Shown here: in pieces, positions 26,414 through 33,832 of the stretch
How the letters are laid out: each line of letters opens with the position of its first letter
Position numbering within the stretch: the first letter of the stretch is position 1
From: Thermoplasmata archaeon
GTDB taxonomy: Archaea > Thermoplasmatota > Thermoplasmata > Thermoplasmatales > Thermoplasmataceae
DNA: 37,734 nt
Reading direction: 5' to 3'
Assembly: GCA_015520045.1 (NCBI GenBank)
Contig: WAQW01000008.1
Coordinates: 1-37,734 of the forward strand
Notes under the pieces: model-generated
Seen by the model: the letters and a program-made list of their open reading frames with translations, nothing else
Databases searched by the model: none
Told to the model about the DNA's origin: nothing
Position numbers and translations under genes: made by a program

Positions 26414-27382
26414 TTAAAGGTAATGCTTTCTGAGAATCTTTATAGGGAGCAAATCTCCCACTCTGATATTTTCTGAACCCATACCTCTGTTGAATTTCAG
26501 CTCAACACTTTCTCCAGTATTCGCAATTTTCAGGTGTACCCTTGTATGTTCACCCTCAAAACCTTTGGATGTCACAGCACCAGAAAAGTCCGGTTCTTCG
26601 TCGTCAATGGATATATCAAGCGGGTGAAATGCTACCGTCTCCCCTGCAATGTGCATTACGTTATAGCCGAAAAACCGGCACGTTTCAACATCTTTAGGAT
26701 TGTTGAAAAGCGTCTCGGGAAGCTCGGGCGCCTTCACCCTCCCGTTGAAAATTAGAGAAGCCCTGTCAGCCATGAAAAGTCCTTCACTGTGATCATGGGT
26801 AACGTATATCATCGTAAGCCCAATCCTGTGTGCGAATTCCTTTATGTCACTTCTGACCCTATTGCGAAGGTGTGTGTCAAGAGATGACAGAGGTTCATCC
26901 AGGAGGAGGAGAAGGGGTGCGGGCGCAACCGATCTCGCGAGAGCTACCCTCTGTTTTTCCCCTCCTGAGATTTCTCCGGGGTACCTTTCAAGAAGGTTAT
27001 GGATACCCAGCATTTTTGCGAGTTCGTATACTCTGTGTTCAATCTCACTCCGTTTGAATCCCTTTACCCTGAGCCCATACGAGATATTGTCGTAAACAGT
27101 CATGTGTGGAAAGAGGGCGAGATCCTGGAATATGATCCCCACGTTTCTCTTCCTGACCGGCATTTTTGTAATGTTTTTCCCTGAAATTATTACACTGCCG
27201 GCATCAGGAATGTCGAGGCCAGCTATGTTGCGAAGGACTGAGGTTTTTCCAGAACCACTCGGCCCCATAAGTGTGAGGGTCTCTCCCTTTTCGACGCTGA
27301 AAGAAACCTCCCTCAGCGAAAACCGTTCGGAATACTTCTTTCCCATTTTAATGATGTCAACGTACGCCAATGAACTTTTCAC
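26414..27382 (-). CDS. thiQ: thiamine ABC transporter ATPase
   Basis: It drives uptake by ATP hydrolysis at the inner face of the membrane. The 322 residues have Walker A GPSGSGKT (40-47), Q86 of the Q-loop, the signature ISGGEKQ (138-144), Walker B LLLLLDEP (157-164), the D-loop SSLD and H196 (THDHSE). A C-terminal module (about 235-322, with FHPLDISIDDEEPDF and a terminal strand VGDLLPIKI) looks like a TOBE-type regulatory domain, so the protein is longer than E. coli ThiQ and closer in shape to FbpC/PotA. It overlaps the end of thiP by 26 bases; an internal ATG at 27346 is an alternative start. The thiamine role is inferred from thiB and the TPP riboswitch. Confidence 0.88.
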   Translation of the reverse strand: MKSSLAYVDIIKMGKKYSERFSLREVSFSVEKGETLTLMGPSGSGKTSVLRNIAGLDIPDAGSVIISGKNITKMPVRKRNVGIIFQDLALFPHMTVYDNISYGLRVKGFKRSEIEHRVYELAKMLGIHNLLERYPGEISGGEKQRVALARSVAPAPLLLLLDEPLSSLDTHLRNRVRSDIKEFAHRIGLTMIYVTHDHSEGLFMADRASLIFNGRVKAPELPETLFNNPKDVETCRFFGYNVMHIAGETVAFHPLDISIDDEEPDFSGAVTSKGFEGEHTRVHLKIANTGESVELKFNRGMGSENIRVGDLLPIKILRKHYL

Positions 27383-29012: not shown

Positions 29013-30112
29013 TCACTGAGTTTTTCCTTTATTAGGGTATTGTTCATGAATGAATTAAGTGGAATGATTGTCCCTTGATCTATGACTGCTCCAAAAGAAG
29101 GCGGTAGGGGCGTGGAGCTATTTGCAGGGAACATCCACTCATTGGTGGGGATCTCATCCTGCACATTTGGACTGAGGAAGTAGTTGATAAATGCCTCATC
29201 CAGGGAAATGTGCTTTGAACCGTTTACTATACCCGCCGTGAAGATGCTCCGCCAGCCATATGCTTTCCCGTTGTGATATGTTACCTGAGACCCCGTTCCA
29301 TTCCCGTAACCAAAGTAGACGTTGTATGCAGGATCTGTGAGATAGCTCACCAGAAGATTAGTGTTTCCTCCCGTTTCGAAGGAGTTGAATGCGGATCCCC
29401 AGCTGTCAAATATGTGGCCTGCGATGTATAGTTTTATTTGCTTCCACCACCCGGTCCAGTTAAGCCCCAGTATGTATTTATAATATGAAATTTCCCATAG
29501 GAGAAATTCCTCACCGGTGCTTGATGTGGTGGGATTTTCGAGCAGCAGATTTGAAGCCAATGTGCCAGAGGTCAGGCTCTCAAAGGAGGGTCTGAAATTC
29601 TTGACGAAACTCCTGTTGTAGTCTATTCCAAGGTATGAATACTCATAGGGGGTCAGGTAGTTTGAAGCGTCTCCAAGCTGTTTCAATACTGAACTGCTTA
29701 CGTATGTATCATCTGGTGACCTGTAACTGACCAACAGTTTTTTGCTGATGGCTGTTAGTCCACTCAAGCCGGTCAGACCAACGACCACATCAAAGGAATG
29801 GTTTCCCGGTGATTCGAGCGTCTGCAAAACGCCAATCTTCGCATACACGATTTTTACGTTCACGTTGTATTTTTTTTCAAAACCGCCTATGATCTTCTGG
29901 AGTGTCGCGTTTGGATTCCTACCGTACTTCATGAATGATGAGTAGGTAAGAACGGTGATGGTTTGTTTCGTTCCTTGATTCCGGTATTCGTAGGCATAGT
30001 AGATGGAAAAACCAGCCACCACAACAACCACAACTGCAACCAACGACCACAGCTTCTTCCTTGGAGACGAATCGCCATACCTCTCTTTTGCGCTCTCTCT
30101 TGCAGGTTTCAT
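28979..30112 (-). CDS. thiB: thiamine-binding lipoprotein-like/anchored substrate-binding protein
   Basis: The 377 residues match the thiamine-binding protein TbpA/ThiB along their length: TVLTYSSFMKYG, FDVVVGLTGL, YEYSYLGIDYNRSF, ENPTTSSTGEEFLLW, DSWGSAFNSFETGGNTN, SYLTDPAY and IPTNEWMFPAN line up with known ThiB blocks. The N terminus is basic, followed by one hydrophobic helix (21-40) without a lipobox, so it is probably anchored to the outer face by an uncleaved helix. Several N-x-S/T sequons suggest glycosylation. The ATG at 30112 follows a strong SD (AGGAGGAT) in the leader downstream of the TPP riboswitch, so synthesis should fall when thiamine pyrophosphate is plentiful. Confidence 0.9.
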   Translation of the reverse strand: MKPARESAKERYGDSSPRKKLWSLVAVVVVVVAGFSIYYAYEYRNQGTKQTITVLTYSSFMKYGRNPNATLQKIIGGFEKKYNVNVKIVYAKIGVLQTLESPGNHSFDVVVGLTGLSGLTAISKKLLVSYRSPDDTYVSSSVLKQLGDASNYLTPYEYSYLGIDYNRSFVKNFRPSFESLTSGTLASNLLLENPTTSSTGEEFLLWEISYYKYILGLNWTGWWKQIKLYIAGHIFDSWGSAFNSFETGGNTNLLVSYLTDPAYNVYFGYGNGTGSQVTYHNGKAYGWRSIFTAGIVNGSKHISLDEAFINYFLSPNVQDEIPTNEWMFPANSSTPLPPSFGAVIDQGTIIPLNSFMNNTLIKEKLSEWMTEWVQVMQ

Positions 30113-30117
30113 TCATA

Positions 30118-30134
30118 TCCTCCTGCTAAGAGGG
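30118..30134 (-). promoter_or_regulatory. possible SD-sequestering hairpin before thiB
   Basis: On the minus strand CCCTC (30134-30130) can pair with GAGG(A) (30122-30118) across the loop TTAGCAG and would hide the thiB SD. The upstream AGGG of the riboswitch (about 30151) could compete for the same CCCT. This suggests translational control, as inference. Confidence 0.35.
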
Positions 30135-30144
30135 CAGAAGTGTT

Positions 30145-30230
30145 CGCTTCCCTTCGCCGGCATTACCCGGATCAGGTTCAAGGGTCGGTGACTATACAAG
30201 TCACCCTCTCAGCCACTTATGCTCCCCTAG
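30145..30230 (-). promoter_or_regulatory. TPP (THI-element) riboswitch
   Basis: The minus strand shows the conserved blocks in order: GGGGAGC (30227-30221), GGCTGAGAGG, a variable stem GGTGAC-TTGTATA-GTCACC, CCCTTGAACCTGATC, CGGGTAATGCCGG and GCGAAGGGAAGC. These are the thiamine-pyrophosphate aptamer's P2/P3 core, J3-2 (CTGAGA), and the P4/P5 arm. The closing stem P1 is short (GCT/AGC). It precedes thiB directly. TPP riboswitches are known in a few archaea, including Thermoplasma. Confidence 0.93.
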
Positions 30231-30247
30231 CCAGTGGAAATTATTAG

Positions 30248-30259
30248 CTATATAATAAA
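30248..30259 (-). promoter_or_regulatory. TATA box of the thi operon
   Basis: On the minus strand TTTATTATATAG is centred at about 30254. Transcription would start near 30228, essentially at the first base of the riboswitch, so the aptamer has almost no 5' flank. Confidence 0.55.
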
Positions 30260-30318
30260 CGTTTTGAGCGATCAATCACCCTTAATAATGTAACACCAGA
30301 TCACTGTGGAATCAAAAG

Positions 30319-31950
30319 TCAGACGTTGTAAACATAGATGAAGCCGTTGTGGTACAGAAGGGAATAAAACGAGGGGACCTCCTCATCATTAAGAGGGGAT
30401 ATCACTATTGAAACGTTATATTTCTCAATGATGGATAACGTCTTGGAGAGATTACCGTACGGATGATATACAAGCGTTCCGGCTGCATAACTTTCTATCA
30501 ATTCGAGCTTTTGAGTCAGCATATCCGGTGCCTGATTTATCAACACTGGATTACCATCATAGCCCATGACAAGGAAACCAACACTGGCATTTGCAGCCAC
30601 AACTCTGTTCTGCTGAACGTTTTCTGAAATCCATTGCACAGTTTCCATATAGCTTGGTGATTGATTGCCACCATACCCCAGAAAGTAGCTGTGTGCACTG
30701 TAATTGAATGCTATTCCCCAGGTAGAATACAGGACAATCAGAGTAACGAGAAGAACCGGCAATTTCTTCTTCGAAAATGATCGGGAGAGGATCGTTTTCT
30801 TCAGGTTTGATGTTTTAAACCCTTGAGCGATGCGACGAAGAAAATAGGAGGCGGGGAATATGTACAGAAACAGCAGAAAATAGGAGATCCTAACGAACAG
30901 TGTTGGTGATGGTAGAGTTAGGATACACAGTGGAATGCTCAGTATCAGAAACGCAATAACGGGTTCACTTAGGAGTTTTCGTTCTTTTCCGTAATAATAG
31001 AAAGTCACCAAAACCATCATGACGGGGAATACCAGGGAAAGATACCACATACTGGAAGGGATTGCGAGGGGCTGTGACAGGTTTGCGGCATCCGCAGTTA
31101 GAATGTTGATTCGAAAGTGCAGATATGCATCTGTGAGAAGGTTACCAGATGCATTATCCAGGTAGGTTATTTTGGGCACATAAAGAAGAACCATGGTGGT
31201 CGCCAGTGCAGCGAGAGAAATACACACACCAGAGATAATGCCTCTATGCGATTTTTTCTCATCGTAGGGGCGCCGTAAAACGAGAAGGGGCAGGTATAAA
31301 ACAAGCACTGCAAAGAGATAAAAGGATGTCAGGTCATGCGTGAAAGCAAGGATAGCGGAAAGAAATCCGATTACCAGCAGCCGTTTCACCGTCCTTTTTT
31401 CTCTGGAGAGTATTGTAAATTCCCAGAGTATGAGAGCCAGAATCAAAAAGGAGGTGACCTGTGGCAGCGCTCCAAAGGAAATGAGGTAAAGCATGGGAGG
31501 GTAGGTCATGTAAACAAGAGAAGCAACAATACCTCCCCTTGCATCGAAAATTCTCTTCAACATGAAAAATACGGGGACTATCCCGAGGCTCTGAAGCAAT
31601 GTCAGAAGGAAGGAAATGACGTAAAACGGTTGCCACCCGGCGAGGGAAAAAGCTGACATAAGAACAGCAAGGAAGTATGGAATTATGGGGGGATATACCC
31701 ATAGGCTACCGGGGTAGTGGAGAGTGTTCACATGAGGAAGCAAGAAATTGTTCTCAATGATCTCACGGGAAAATGTTATCCACTGTGCTGAATCTCCGGT
31801 TCCAACGAAGGATGGATATGATGAGAGGATTGCCATTCTTACAAGGAAGCTCACTGAAAATGTTATGAGCAGTGCCTTGCCCTCCCAACCCATTGAACGC
31901 GTTCTTCGGCTTTTCTCATATACGCTGGAAGGCGGTATGATAGGATTCAT
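30319..31950 (-). CDS. GT-C-type membrane glycosyltransferase-like protein
   Basis: The 543 residues have about 11-12 transmembrane helices and a C-terminal exterior domain of about 110 residues (from LGYGGNQSPSYMETVQWISE). The first exterior loop after helix 1 has FVGTGDSAQWI with an Asp, and the next has NTLHYPGSLWVYPPIIPYFL, the arrangement of PMT/STT3-like GT-C enzymes that use lipid-linked sugars. Substrate and acceptor are unknown. The start ATG lies 1 base after the stop of the DUF2079 gene, so both form one operon. Several sequons occur in the tail. Alternatively it could be a non-enzymatic relative. Confidence 0.7.
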   Translation of the reverse strand: MNPIIPPSSVYEKSRRTRSMGWEGKALLITFSVSFLVRMAILSSYPSFVGTGDSAQWITFSREIIENNFLLPHVNTLHYPGSLWVYPPIIPYFLAVLMSAFSLAGWQPFYVISFLLTLLQSLGIVPVFFMLKRIFDARGGIVASLVYMTYPPMLYLISFGALPQVTSFLILALILWEFTILSREKRTVKRLLVIGFLSAILAFTHDLTSFYLFAVLVLYLPLLVLRRPYDEKKSHRGIISGVCISLAALATTMVLLYVPKITYLDNASGNLLTDAYLHFRINILTADAANLSQPLAIPSSMWYLSLVFPVMMVLVTFYYYGKERKLLSEPVIAFLILSIPLCILTLPSPTLFVRISYFLLFLYIFPASYFLRRIAQGFKTSNLKKTILSRSFSKKKLPVLLVTLIVLYSTWGIAFNYSAHSYFLGYGGNQSPSYMETVQWISENVQQNRVVAANASVGFLVMGYDGNPVLINQAPDMLTQKLELIESYAAGTLVYHPYGNLSKTLSIIEKYNVSIVISPLNDEEVPSFYSLLYHNGFIYVYNV

Positions 31951-31951
31951 T

Positions 31952-33832
31952 TCAACTCATCCCCCTTTTCCCTGAGCTATTTGTATGGATACATGAGGGA
32001 TAATTGTGTGGTAAAGCCACCTCATTTATATGGATCAGAAGTGCTAATGGTTGAAGAGAGTTATTCAGGTAGACCCTTATGGTGAGCTTGCTAAAGAATT
32101 CATTCACATGGATGAAAATGGTACCGTTCACAGGGGTGGCCGTGTAAATGGTTTCGCCTGTAGACTTATCAGTTATGCTTATGTGGAGCAAGGAAGAATT
32201 GAAAACTCCACCCTGGAGGTCTGTCAGGCTGATTTCGTAGATGCCCGGTACCGCAAAGGGAATATTGCCAGTATACGGTGCTGATTGGTTAATTCTGAAA
32301 TTGGATCTTTTGGCACTTATTACCATTTTAAGAGGAACAAATTCTGAACCCGATATGATGGTGTTTTTGGTAATAACTGTTATGCCAGAGAGCTCTCTGG
32401 ATATATGGTAGTTCCCGGTGCCAAGAAAATAATTGGCAGAATTGACCATGGTTTCATTCACTTTATGATAGGGGGCCGAATAGCTGCTGTAGTAACTTGA
32501 GTAAGGATCAACGATGATGTAATCCGGCTCAAAACCTGGCTGCATAAAGTCTGGTAGCTGCCACGAGTACCTATATGTAAACTGGGGCATGTTGTTCTGA
32601 ATCAAAACAGAGCTCCCCACAGGTATGGAGTTCACGATCTGCCACAGATATGCATCATAGCTGGTGAATTCAGTATCCCTTACGGCATTGTACTGATAGG
32701 GATTTCCGGAGATATATTTGCCGTACGATGAGTGATAGATATTACCAGTATAGAGGTTTCCTATTGGCGTAAAGAACGAGAACAGAATGATATTCAGGAC
32801 GATAAGCGTTGTGGCAAATGAGTTGCGTATCTTTTTTTTTGAGCGGGAATTCCTCATTAAGCTTATGACTCTGCCGAGCCCCTTCACAGCGGAAACAAAC
32901 AGTATTGGGCTTATCAGCGCCGGATACTGGAAGAACATTGTGGAGATATAAGGTTGGTATGAATTAACAAAGACCAGAGCGAAGAATGGTATGCCGACAA
33001 GCACGAAATCGGCACCAGCAAGAGGAAGGAACAGGAAGGGAAGAAGCATGGCGATCAGGTAGTGAAATTTTTCAAGGAGGGTAACGTTGTAGAGTAGGCT
33101 GAAGCTTGAACCTTTCATAAAGAGGTACTGCGTATCATAGGAGGTTCCGAAGATCAGGGAAACGAGGACCAAAACTGCGAGAGAGACTGTTATCATCACA
33201 GCGCCATAGTATCTTCTGCTGGTGGAGAGCCCCTCTTTTTTTAGGAAGATGTAACCGGTCAGGAAGATGAATATCAGAGGTGCGAGATAATCTGTGATGA
33301 TGCCCATTATGCCGAAGAATATTGACGTCCCTGTCTTCCCCCGGAGAAACTCACTGTATGATAGAAGAAAGAAGGTGGGAAATATAGACATGAAATGAAA
33401 ATCGAACCAGTAGACACCACCAAGGGGGTAATAGAGTAGGTAAGAGGAGGCTATTGCGAGAGAAACCCATCCATTCGTAACATATCGTCTGGCAATACCG
33501 TAAGCGGGAAAGATACCCAGCGATAACCATGATGCCTGCAAAACAAGGAGCAAGGGTTGATAGGGAAAGAGATAATAGATGTACGCCAGGGGAATGGCAA
33601 TGAGCTTGTTCCACGGGATGGCCACAGGATCTGACTGTAACCACCAGACAGCATTATGCCCCAATCCATAAAGAAATGATGAAGCCAACCCCAGATCGAA
33701 GACATCTGCATGAAAAGAGAAGTATCGCATCAGTGAGACGTACGCCCAGATCGTCGAGAAAGAAAGGTAGATTATGACAAGATAGGGAAACTGATAGCTT
33801 TTTTTGCGGATTGGAACAGACCCTCTGAGCAC
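31952..33832 (-). CDS. DUF2079 membrane protein with a glycosylation-rich exterior tail
   Basis: The 626 residues start with a DUF2079 region: after helix 1 the exterior loop FHADVFDLGLASSFLYG (Asp pair typical of GT-C loop 1), then NKLIAIPLAYIYYLFPYQPLLLVLQ, followed by about 8 more helices to about residue 350. The last about 250 residues form an exterior beta-rich domain with N-x-S/T sequons (NETM, NQSA, NSSL, NGTI, NNSL, NSSG). The start is a GTG at 33832 with a TATA-like GATTTAAGT 27 bases upstream, that is, a leaderless GTG start. It is the first gene of a two-gene operon with the GT-C-like protein. Its exact reaction is unknown. Confidence 0.75.
   Translation of the reverse strand: MLRGSVPIRKKSYQFPYLVIIYLSFSTIWAYVSLMRYFSFHADVFDLGLASSFLYGLGHNAVWWLQSDPVAIPWNKLIAIPLAYIYYLFPYQPLLLVLQASWLSLGIFPAYGIARRYVTNGWVSLAIASSYLLYYPLGGVYWFDFHFMSIFPTFFLLSYSEFLRGKTGTSIFFGIMGIITDYLAPLIFIFLTGYIFLKKEGLSTSRRYYGAVMITVSLAVLVLVSLIFGTSYDTQYLFMKGSSFSLLYNVTLLEKFHYLIAMLLPFLFLPLAGADFVLVGIPFFALVFVNSYQPYISTMFFQYPALISPILFVSAVKGLGRVISLMRNSRSKKKIRNSFATTLIVLNIILFSFFTPIGNLYTGNIYHSSYGKYISGNPYQYNAVRDTEFTSYDAYLWQIVNSIPVGSSVLIQNNMPQFTYRYSWQLPDFMQPGFEPDYIIVDPYSSYYSSYSAPYHKVNETMVNSANYFLGTGNYHISRELSGITVITKNTIISGSEFVPLKMVISAKRSNFRINQSAPYTGNIPFAVPGIYEISLTDLQGGVFNSSLLHISITDKSTGETIYTATPVNGTIFIHVNEFFSKLTIRVYLNNSLQPLALLIHINEVALPHNYPSCIHTNSSGKRGMS

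Follow-up and report, generated by a model that had tools for sequence, protein, structure and literature searches.

A TPP riboswitch, predicted to occupy the extreme 5' end of its mRNA, probably turns off translation of the thiB-like, permease and ATPase genes when TPP is plentiful, by means of two helices, termed W and Y, in the 37,734-nucleotide stretch of DNA analysed here (the window). In the absence of TPP, the 5' end of the mRNA, GCUAGGGGAGC, would pair with the 11 nt immediately 5' of the Shine-Dalgarno (SD) sequence to form helix W. This helix would dissolve P1 and P2 of the aptamer, block closing of the sequestor and leave AGGAGG free, and the transporter would be made. In the presence of TPP, the aptamer would retain the 5' strand in P1/P2 and thereby prevent helix W; the pre-SD stretch and part of the SD would then pair with codons 3-6, forming the extended helix Y, and the SD would be hidden. 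It is most likely that TPP prevents W, permits Y and halts translation, and we infer this order of the ON and OFF states in the cell.

The aptamer and the genes that follow it are located on the reverse strand of the window:
30132..30238, (-) strand: TPP aptamer (RF00059 match), scoring 64.8 bits where the gathering cut-off is 54.3, with an E-value of 1.1e-10
30231-30146, (-) strand: functional core of the aptamer, closed by a 3-bp P1
28979..30112, (-) strand: thiB-like substrate-binding protein, 377 aa; TIGR01254 at 115 bits (cut-off 93.4); PF01547
27357..29012, (-) strand: thiP-like two-domain ABC permease, 551 aa, overlapping thiB; PF00528 in two stretches
26414..27382, (-) strand: ABC ATPase in the thiQ position, 322 aa, overlapping the permease gene; PF00005 at 119.5 bits

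The aptamer is an ordinary member of RF00059, a known riboswitch class; the match spans the full model (positions 1-105 of 105), and no second TPP match occurs in the assembly, which measures 1.14 Mb at 76% completeness. The aptamer presumably binds TPP. The earlier note had read this region as a TPP riboswitch on an archaeal thiamine-transporter mRNA, with GGGG at 30227 and a P1 of about 3 base pairs, and the analysis confirms each of these points. GGGG does start at 30227, and P1 consists of the three pairs of GCU/AGC, in which 30231-30229 are paired with 30148-30146. The 3' end of the aptamer reads GAAGGGA, and the thiB start codon lies 36 nt beyond the aptamer.

The genes that stand 3' of the aptamer point to thiamine transport. 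The thiB-like protein clears the curated cut-off of the thiamine ABC transporter substrate-binding subfamily TIGR01254 and falls below that of the ThiB equivalog (TIGR01276, 67.5 vs 317 bits); judged by these scores, it is a distant relative and not the equivalog of bacterial ThiB. Three contigs on which relatives of this protein are encoded are Thermoplasmata MAGs, and the archaeal host is likewise supported. ThiP models match the permease along its whole length with scores below the cut-off, and NCBIfam does not resolve the substrate class of the ATPase. Two large membrane-protein genes lie upstream on the same strand. The first, 30319-31950 (-), ends ~60 bp 5' of the riboswitch TATA box and is matched by neither Pfam nor NCBIfam; the second, 31952-33832 (-), encodes a DUF2079 protein.

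The earlier note had also regarded riboswitches as rare in archaea. For TPP riboswitches this does not hold in the class Thermoplasmata: a TPP match at E <= 0.001 is present in 192 of 400 genomes, and in 167 it exceeds the Rfam cut-off. The set of aptamers analysed comprises 119 distinct sequences, almost all of them from the order of the window. Eighteen of the 119 have a platform of the window type, in which the aptamer mostly ends in GAAGG(G/A)A and the SD is situated in a separate platform, and another order of the class contributes five more (L127, L128, L139, L142 and L144). The window-type leaders that were checked all precede thiB-like genes, identified with TIGR01254 for the window and L029, by tblastn for L031-L033 and from the readable N-terminal part for L015.

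ThiC was absent from all seven genomes checked that carry the window-type platform, five of which are > 95% complete, and the control search detected ThiC in 13 of 14 well-known genomes. All seven have thiL, which scores above its cut-off in six of them. TPP is therefore likely to derive from salvage of thiamine or its phosphates, as would fit an importer under feedback control. Hits to PF01946 (Thi4) were not counted, as they lie within other ORFs and cover only ~35-60 positions, at the N-terminal nucleotide-binding motif.

The 5' end of the transcript was placed with the help of the relatives, and two features result:
30249..30266, (-) strand: promoter, with an A-rich BRE (30266-30260) and a TATA-like TTTATTATATA (30259-30249), from the sequence and the A+T profile of relatives
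30231, (-) strand: predicted transcription start, the G of GCUAGGGG, from the TATA distance and a sharp onset of conservation

An unsupervised motif search upstream of the aptamers yielded no usable TATA motif, with a score barely above shuffled sequence, and an A+T profile anchored on the GGGG of the aptamer was therefore taken instead. Over 93 non-redundant upstream regions of relatives, A+T amounts to 84-92% at -32..-26 from GGGG, and the sequence is A-rich at -38..-35; the TATA-like TTTATTATATA of the window sits 32 to 22 nt 5' of GGGG. The archaeal TATA box is centred ~27 nt and the BRE ~33 nt before start sites (PMC5316973), so the start is expected ~2 nt before GGGG, +/-3. The alignment further reveals that conservation starts sharply at G30231. 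GCTA at -4..-1 is identical in all 18 window-type leaders and the sequence is variable from -5 onwards; no such invariant block occurs in 100 other aptamers with sufficient upstream sequence. The TATA distance together with the onset of conservation in the 18 leaders suggests that transcription starts at G30231, approximately the first base of the aptamer. The earlier proposal that the aptamer opens the mRNA, which had been made from the TATA box, thus gains support from the relatives, as a prediction.

The SD and the two strands of helix Y surround the start codon:
30119..30124, (-) strand: Shine-Dalgarno AGGAGG, complementary to the CCUCCU of the host's 16S rRNA 3' end
30122..30126, (-) strand: helix Y 5' strand GCAGG, overlapping the SD; extension CUCUU at 30132-30128
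30102..30106, (-) strand: helix Y 3' strand CCUGC, within thiB codons 3-4; extended by AAGAG at 30101-30097

AGGAGG lies 6 nt 5' of the thiB start codon (thiB starts at 30112). Since GGATCACCTCCT stands at the 3' end of the 16S rRNA of this organism, AGGAGG is a full match to the host anti-SD; translation of thiB presumably depends on this SD. Across leaders, the SD region GYRGGA pairs with UCCURC in codons 2-4, and 99.0% of the helix Y cells are paired, compared with 32-48% when the strands are slid. A double change from C-G to U-A is observed in five sequences, and none of 500 shuffles reached the covariation score; the support for Y comes mainly from one covarying pair, and the codons concerned may also be conserved for the protein. 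The pairing GCAGG:CCUGC is also present in the best structure of the window with the aptamer forced.

A different sequestor was envisaged in the earlier note, namely a hairpin of CCUC with GAGG (loop UUAGCAG) that would hide the SD when TPP is bound, with no coding region involved. All four pairs of this hairpin can be drawn in the window and also in five relatives. The other twelve leaders, however, offer only 2-3 of the 4 pairs, and the hairpin is missing from the best aptamer-forced structure of the window, where GCAGG pairs with CCUGC. The conserved sequestor is instead GCAGG(A) with CCUGC of codons 3-4, and we consider it improbable that the CCUC:GAGG hairpin hides the SD.

Helix W, the anti-sequestor in the preferred reading, joins the two ends of the leader:
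30221..30231, (-) strand: helix W 5' strand GCUAGGGGAGC, which is the 5' strand of aptamer P1/P2; invariant in 18 of 18 plus 5 leaders
30125..30135, (-) strand: helix W 3' strand GCCCUCUUAGC, immediately 5' of the SD; 10 of 11 pairs, no bulge

The 5' strand is identical in all 18 window-type leaders and in 5 of 5 from the other order. The window forms 10 of the 11 pairs and the other leaders 9-11 (mean 10.56 over the 18 leaders), compared with a mean of 2.6-6.8 in 23 other registers; all 18 leaders peak at the register that adjoins the SD. Among the 16 distinct sequences, 95.5% of the helix W cells are paired, and 40-62% when the strands are slid. The changes are one-sided only, and the lack of double covariation is attributed to the aptamer, which fixes the 5' strand of the helix. 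The two bases 30126-30125 belong to both helices, and W also takes the 5' strand of P1 and P2. W therefore excludes the aptamer and a complete Y, while the aptamer and Y are compatible with each other. Helix W was also considered as a rule for all Thermoplasmata TPP leaders; this is unsupported beyond the platform of the window, and the picture is mixed in other families.

The two purine-rich strands of the aptamer are alike, so that the pre-SD stretch could pair with either. If the leader worked like that of E. coli thiM, AGGGAAGC on the 3' side of the aptamer would pair locally with CUUC...CCCU when TPP is absent, which resembles the idea of the earlier note that the aptamer's AGGG competes for CCCU. 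AGGRAAGC can pair with GCUUYUCU in many relatives, the 3'-strand pairing reaches p <= 0.01 in 9 of 23 leaders, and it forms in the computed free structure of L020. Nevertheless, the 5' strand forms the stronger duplex in all leaders of this platform, at -11 to -18 vs -2 to -11 kcal/mol (-13.8 vs -5.6 kcal/mol in the window), and the pairing in the window stands out from shuffles for the 5' strand (p 0.013) and is no better than shuffles for the 3' strand (p 0.19). The thiM assignment of the anti-anti-SD to the 3' side of the aptamer is thus not what these leaders prefer. The six pairs of Y would remain possible beside the 3'-strand helix, which would therefore not alone free the SD. Alignment columns 19-20 (U and G just 5' of the SD, with A at 20 in the window) are conserved or change along with W, and neither Y nor the 3'-strand helix offers them a partner. 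AGGRAAGC:GCUUYUCU, being weaker and less conserved than the 5'-strand pairing, was set aside, and a mechanism of the thiM kind appears unlikely here. The complementarity of AGGG and CCCU can be drawn as had been noted, but the chief competitor would be the 11-nt helix of GCUAGGGGAGC with the 11 nt before the SD.

The effect of the aptamer on the SD was calculated as the cost of keeping the SD unpaired with vs without enforced aptamer pairs (ViennaRNA, 37 C), in a folding model that contains no Mg2+, tertiary contacts, ligand or co-transcriptional order. This SD-opening cost rises in the window from 1.9 kcal/mol in the free RNA to 7.6 kcal/mol with the aptamer forced. It rises by 2.7-7.7 kcal/mol in 17 of the 18 window-type leaders and by 2.8-9.2 kcal/mol in all five from the other order, hence by 2.7-9.2 kcal/mol in 22 of 23 leaders, which are related by descent and are not 23 independent cases. 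The exception is L120, with a change of 0.3 kcal/mol and no computed switch. When the linker and the start of the coding region were shuffled (100 times per leader), the mean change was -0.3 to +0.4 kcal/mol, and the observed rise was reached by at most 4% of the 100 platform shuffles in those 17 leaders. Results at 55 C are similar to those at 37 C. The computed energies in the window are -49.0 for the W state, -49.7 for the whole free ensemble and -47.0 for the aptamer state; the gap of 2.0 between the W and aptamer states could plausibly be closed by ligand binding.

In these computations the SD is less accessible when the aptamer is formed, as is characteristic of a translational riboswitch that sequesters its SD. 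The translational switch foreseen in the earlier note is thus supported as to its kind, given the computed SD-opening cost and the conserved helices, and its pairing partners are mostly wrong. Control at the level of transcription, in which TPP binding leads to early termination in the leader, is generally known to be common among the TPP riboswitches of Bacillota. In the window, however, there is no run of at least 4 U between the aptamer and the start codon, and no terminator-like site in the leader; the single site found lies inside the gene and is at about the shuffle level. The conserved elements, moreover, centre on the SD. Termination is accordingly very improbable in our judgement, and sequestration of the SD through helices W and Y is the reading retained.

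The other 101 of the 119 aptamers belong to another platform, and the downstream genes tested encode MFS transporters or, in another family, thiB-like proteins. GGAGG in the 3' strand of P4 is the SD itself in 99 of the 101 (e.g. L005, L026, L035, L037, L045 and L068). In 50 aptamers the main start codon follows this aptamer-borne GGAGG after 3-7 nt, so TPP binding would hide the SD directly. Such direct occlusion through an SD within the aptamer, the prevailing arrangement among the TPP riboswitches of the order, might be supposed for the window too. The anatomy of the window contradicts it. Instead of GGAGG in the P4 3' strand with a start codon within ~3-12 nt, the aptamer has its GAAGGGA end, a start codon far beyond it and a separate AGGAGG close to that start, which leaves direct occlusion scarcely credible for thiB.

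Further arrangements are also observed. In 47 of the 101 aptamers a short ORF (mostly 12-42 aa) follows the aptamer-borne SD, and its stop codon overlaps or nears the start of the transporter gene. In many of them the overlap measures 1 nt (e.g. L010, L013, L019, L039, L048 and L090), 4 nt (e.g. L007, L025, L050, L094 and L095) or 7 nt (e.g. L004, L021, L047 and L063). These overlaps suggest that the riboswitch may act through a translationally coupled leader peptide. In other families of the class, a G+C-rich hairpin that includes an SD-like strand abuts the start codon (L130, L134, L141, L143, L146, L147, L150 and L151); this sequestor is unlike that of the window. A further leader type (L131, L132, L135, L140 and L149) carries a conserved TTTTCAGCC...CCCTGAGGA(G/A)TC block between the aptamer and the start codon.

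We lean, with some reserve, toward the broader view that the TPP aptamer of Thermoplasmata is coupled to translation in several distinct ways. In the thiB version, at the extreme mRNA 5' end, part of the aptamer would serve as anti-sequestor and the first codons as sequestor; in the sister type the aptamer itself contains the SD, which often serves a short leader ORF, apparently coupled to the transporter. If this is true, the promoter position, the aptamer and the coding sequence of the thiB leader evolve as a single device. Many archaeal riboswitches have been predicted and almost none has a tested mechanism. The thiB leader offers a conserved two-state model with exact partners, 23 natural variants and a shuffle control, and can therefore be tested by a few point mutations. 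The same alignment presents one aptamer wired to translation differently within a single archaeal class.

The window shares with the RF00059 THI element an aptamer sequence and fold above the curated cut-off and a thiamine transporter downstream; it differs in having a minimal P1 of 3 bp where the mRNA presumably starts, an archaeal promoter and a platform that lies outside the Rfam model. THI elements were reportedly described in Thermoplasma by Rodionov et al. in 2002, and these have in common with the window the order and a TPP aptamer 5' of transporter genes. Unlike the window, the examples L005, L037, L045 and L068 precede MFS transporters, have the SD inside the aptamer and possess no W or Y helix. 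A literature search that reached few subscription papers returned no published description of the W/Y platform, which looks like a new, well-conserved archaeal translation platform on a known riboswitch class. In the free state of E. coli thiM, P2 and P3 are kept, P1 is mispaired and the SD is unpaired (PMC3280964). Common to both systems is an SD that is hidden when TPP is bound and a free state that opens the SD and misfolds P1; in the window, by contrast, it is the 5' strand of P1/P2, and not the 3' side, that the free state would use, and coding sequence forms part of the sequestor. As of 2014, no direct support was seen for riboswitch regulation in archaea in vivo (PMC4247193), and in 2021 the fluoride riboswitch of Thermococcus kodakarensis was named as the only experimentally determined natural archaeal one (PMC8241225). 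The latter is likewise archaeal and presumed to act on translation, and differs from the thiB leader in its unrelated aptamer and ligand.
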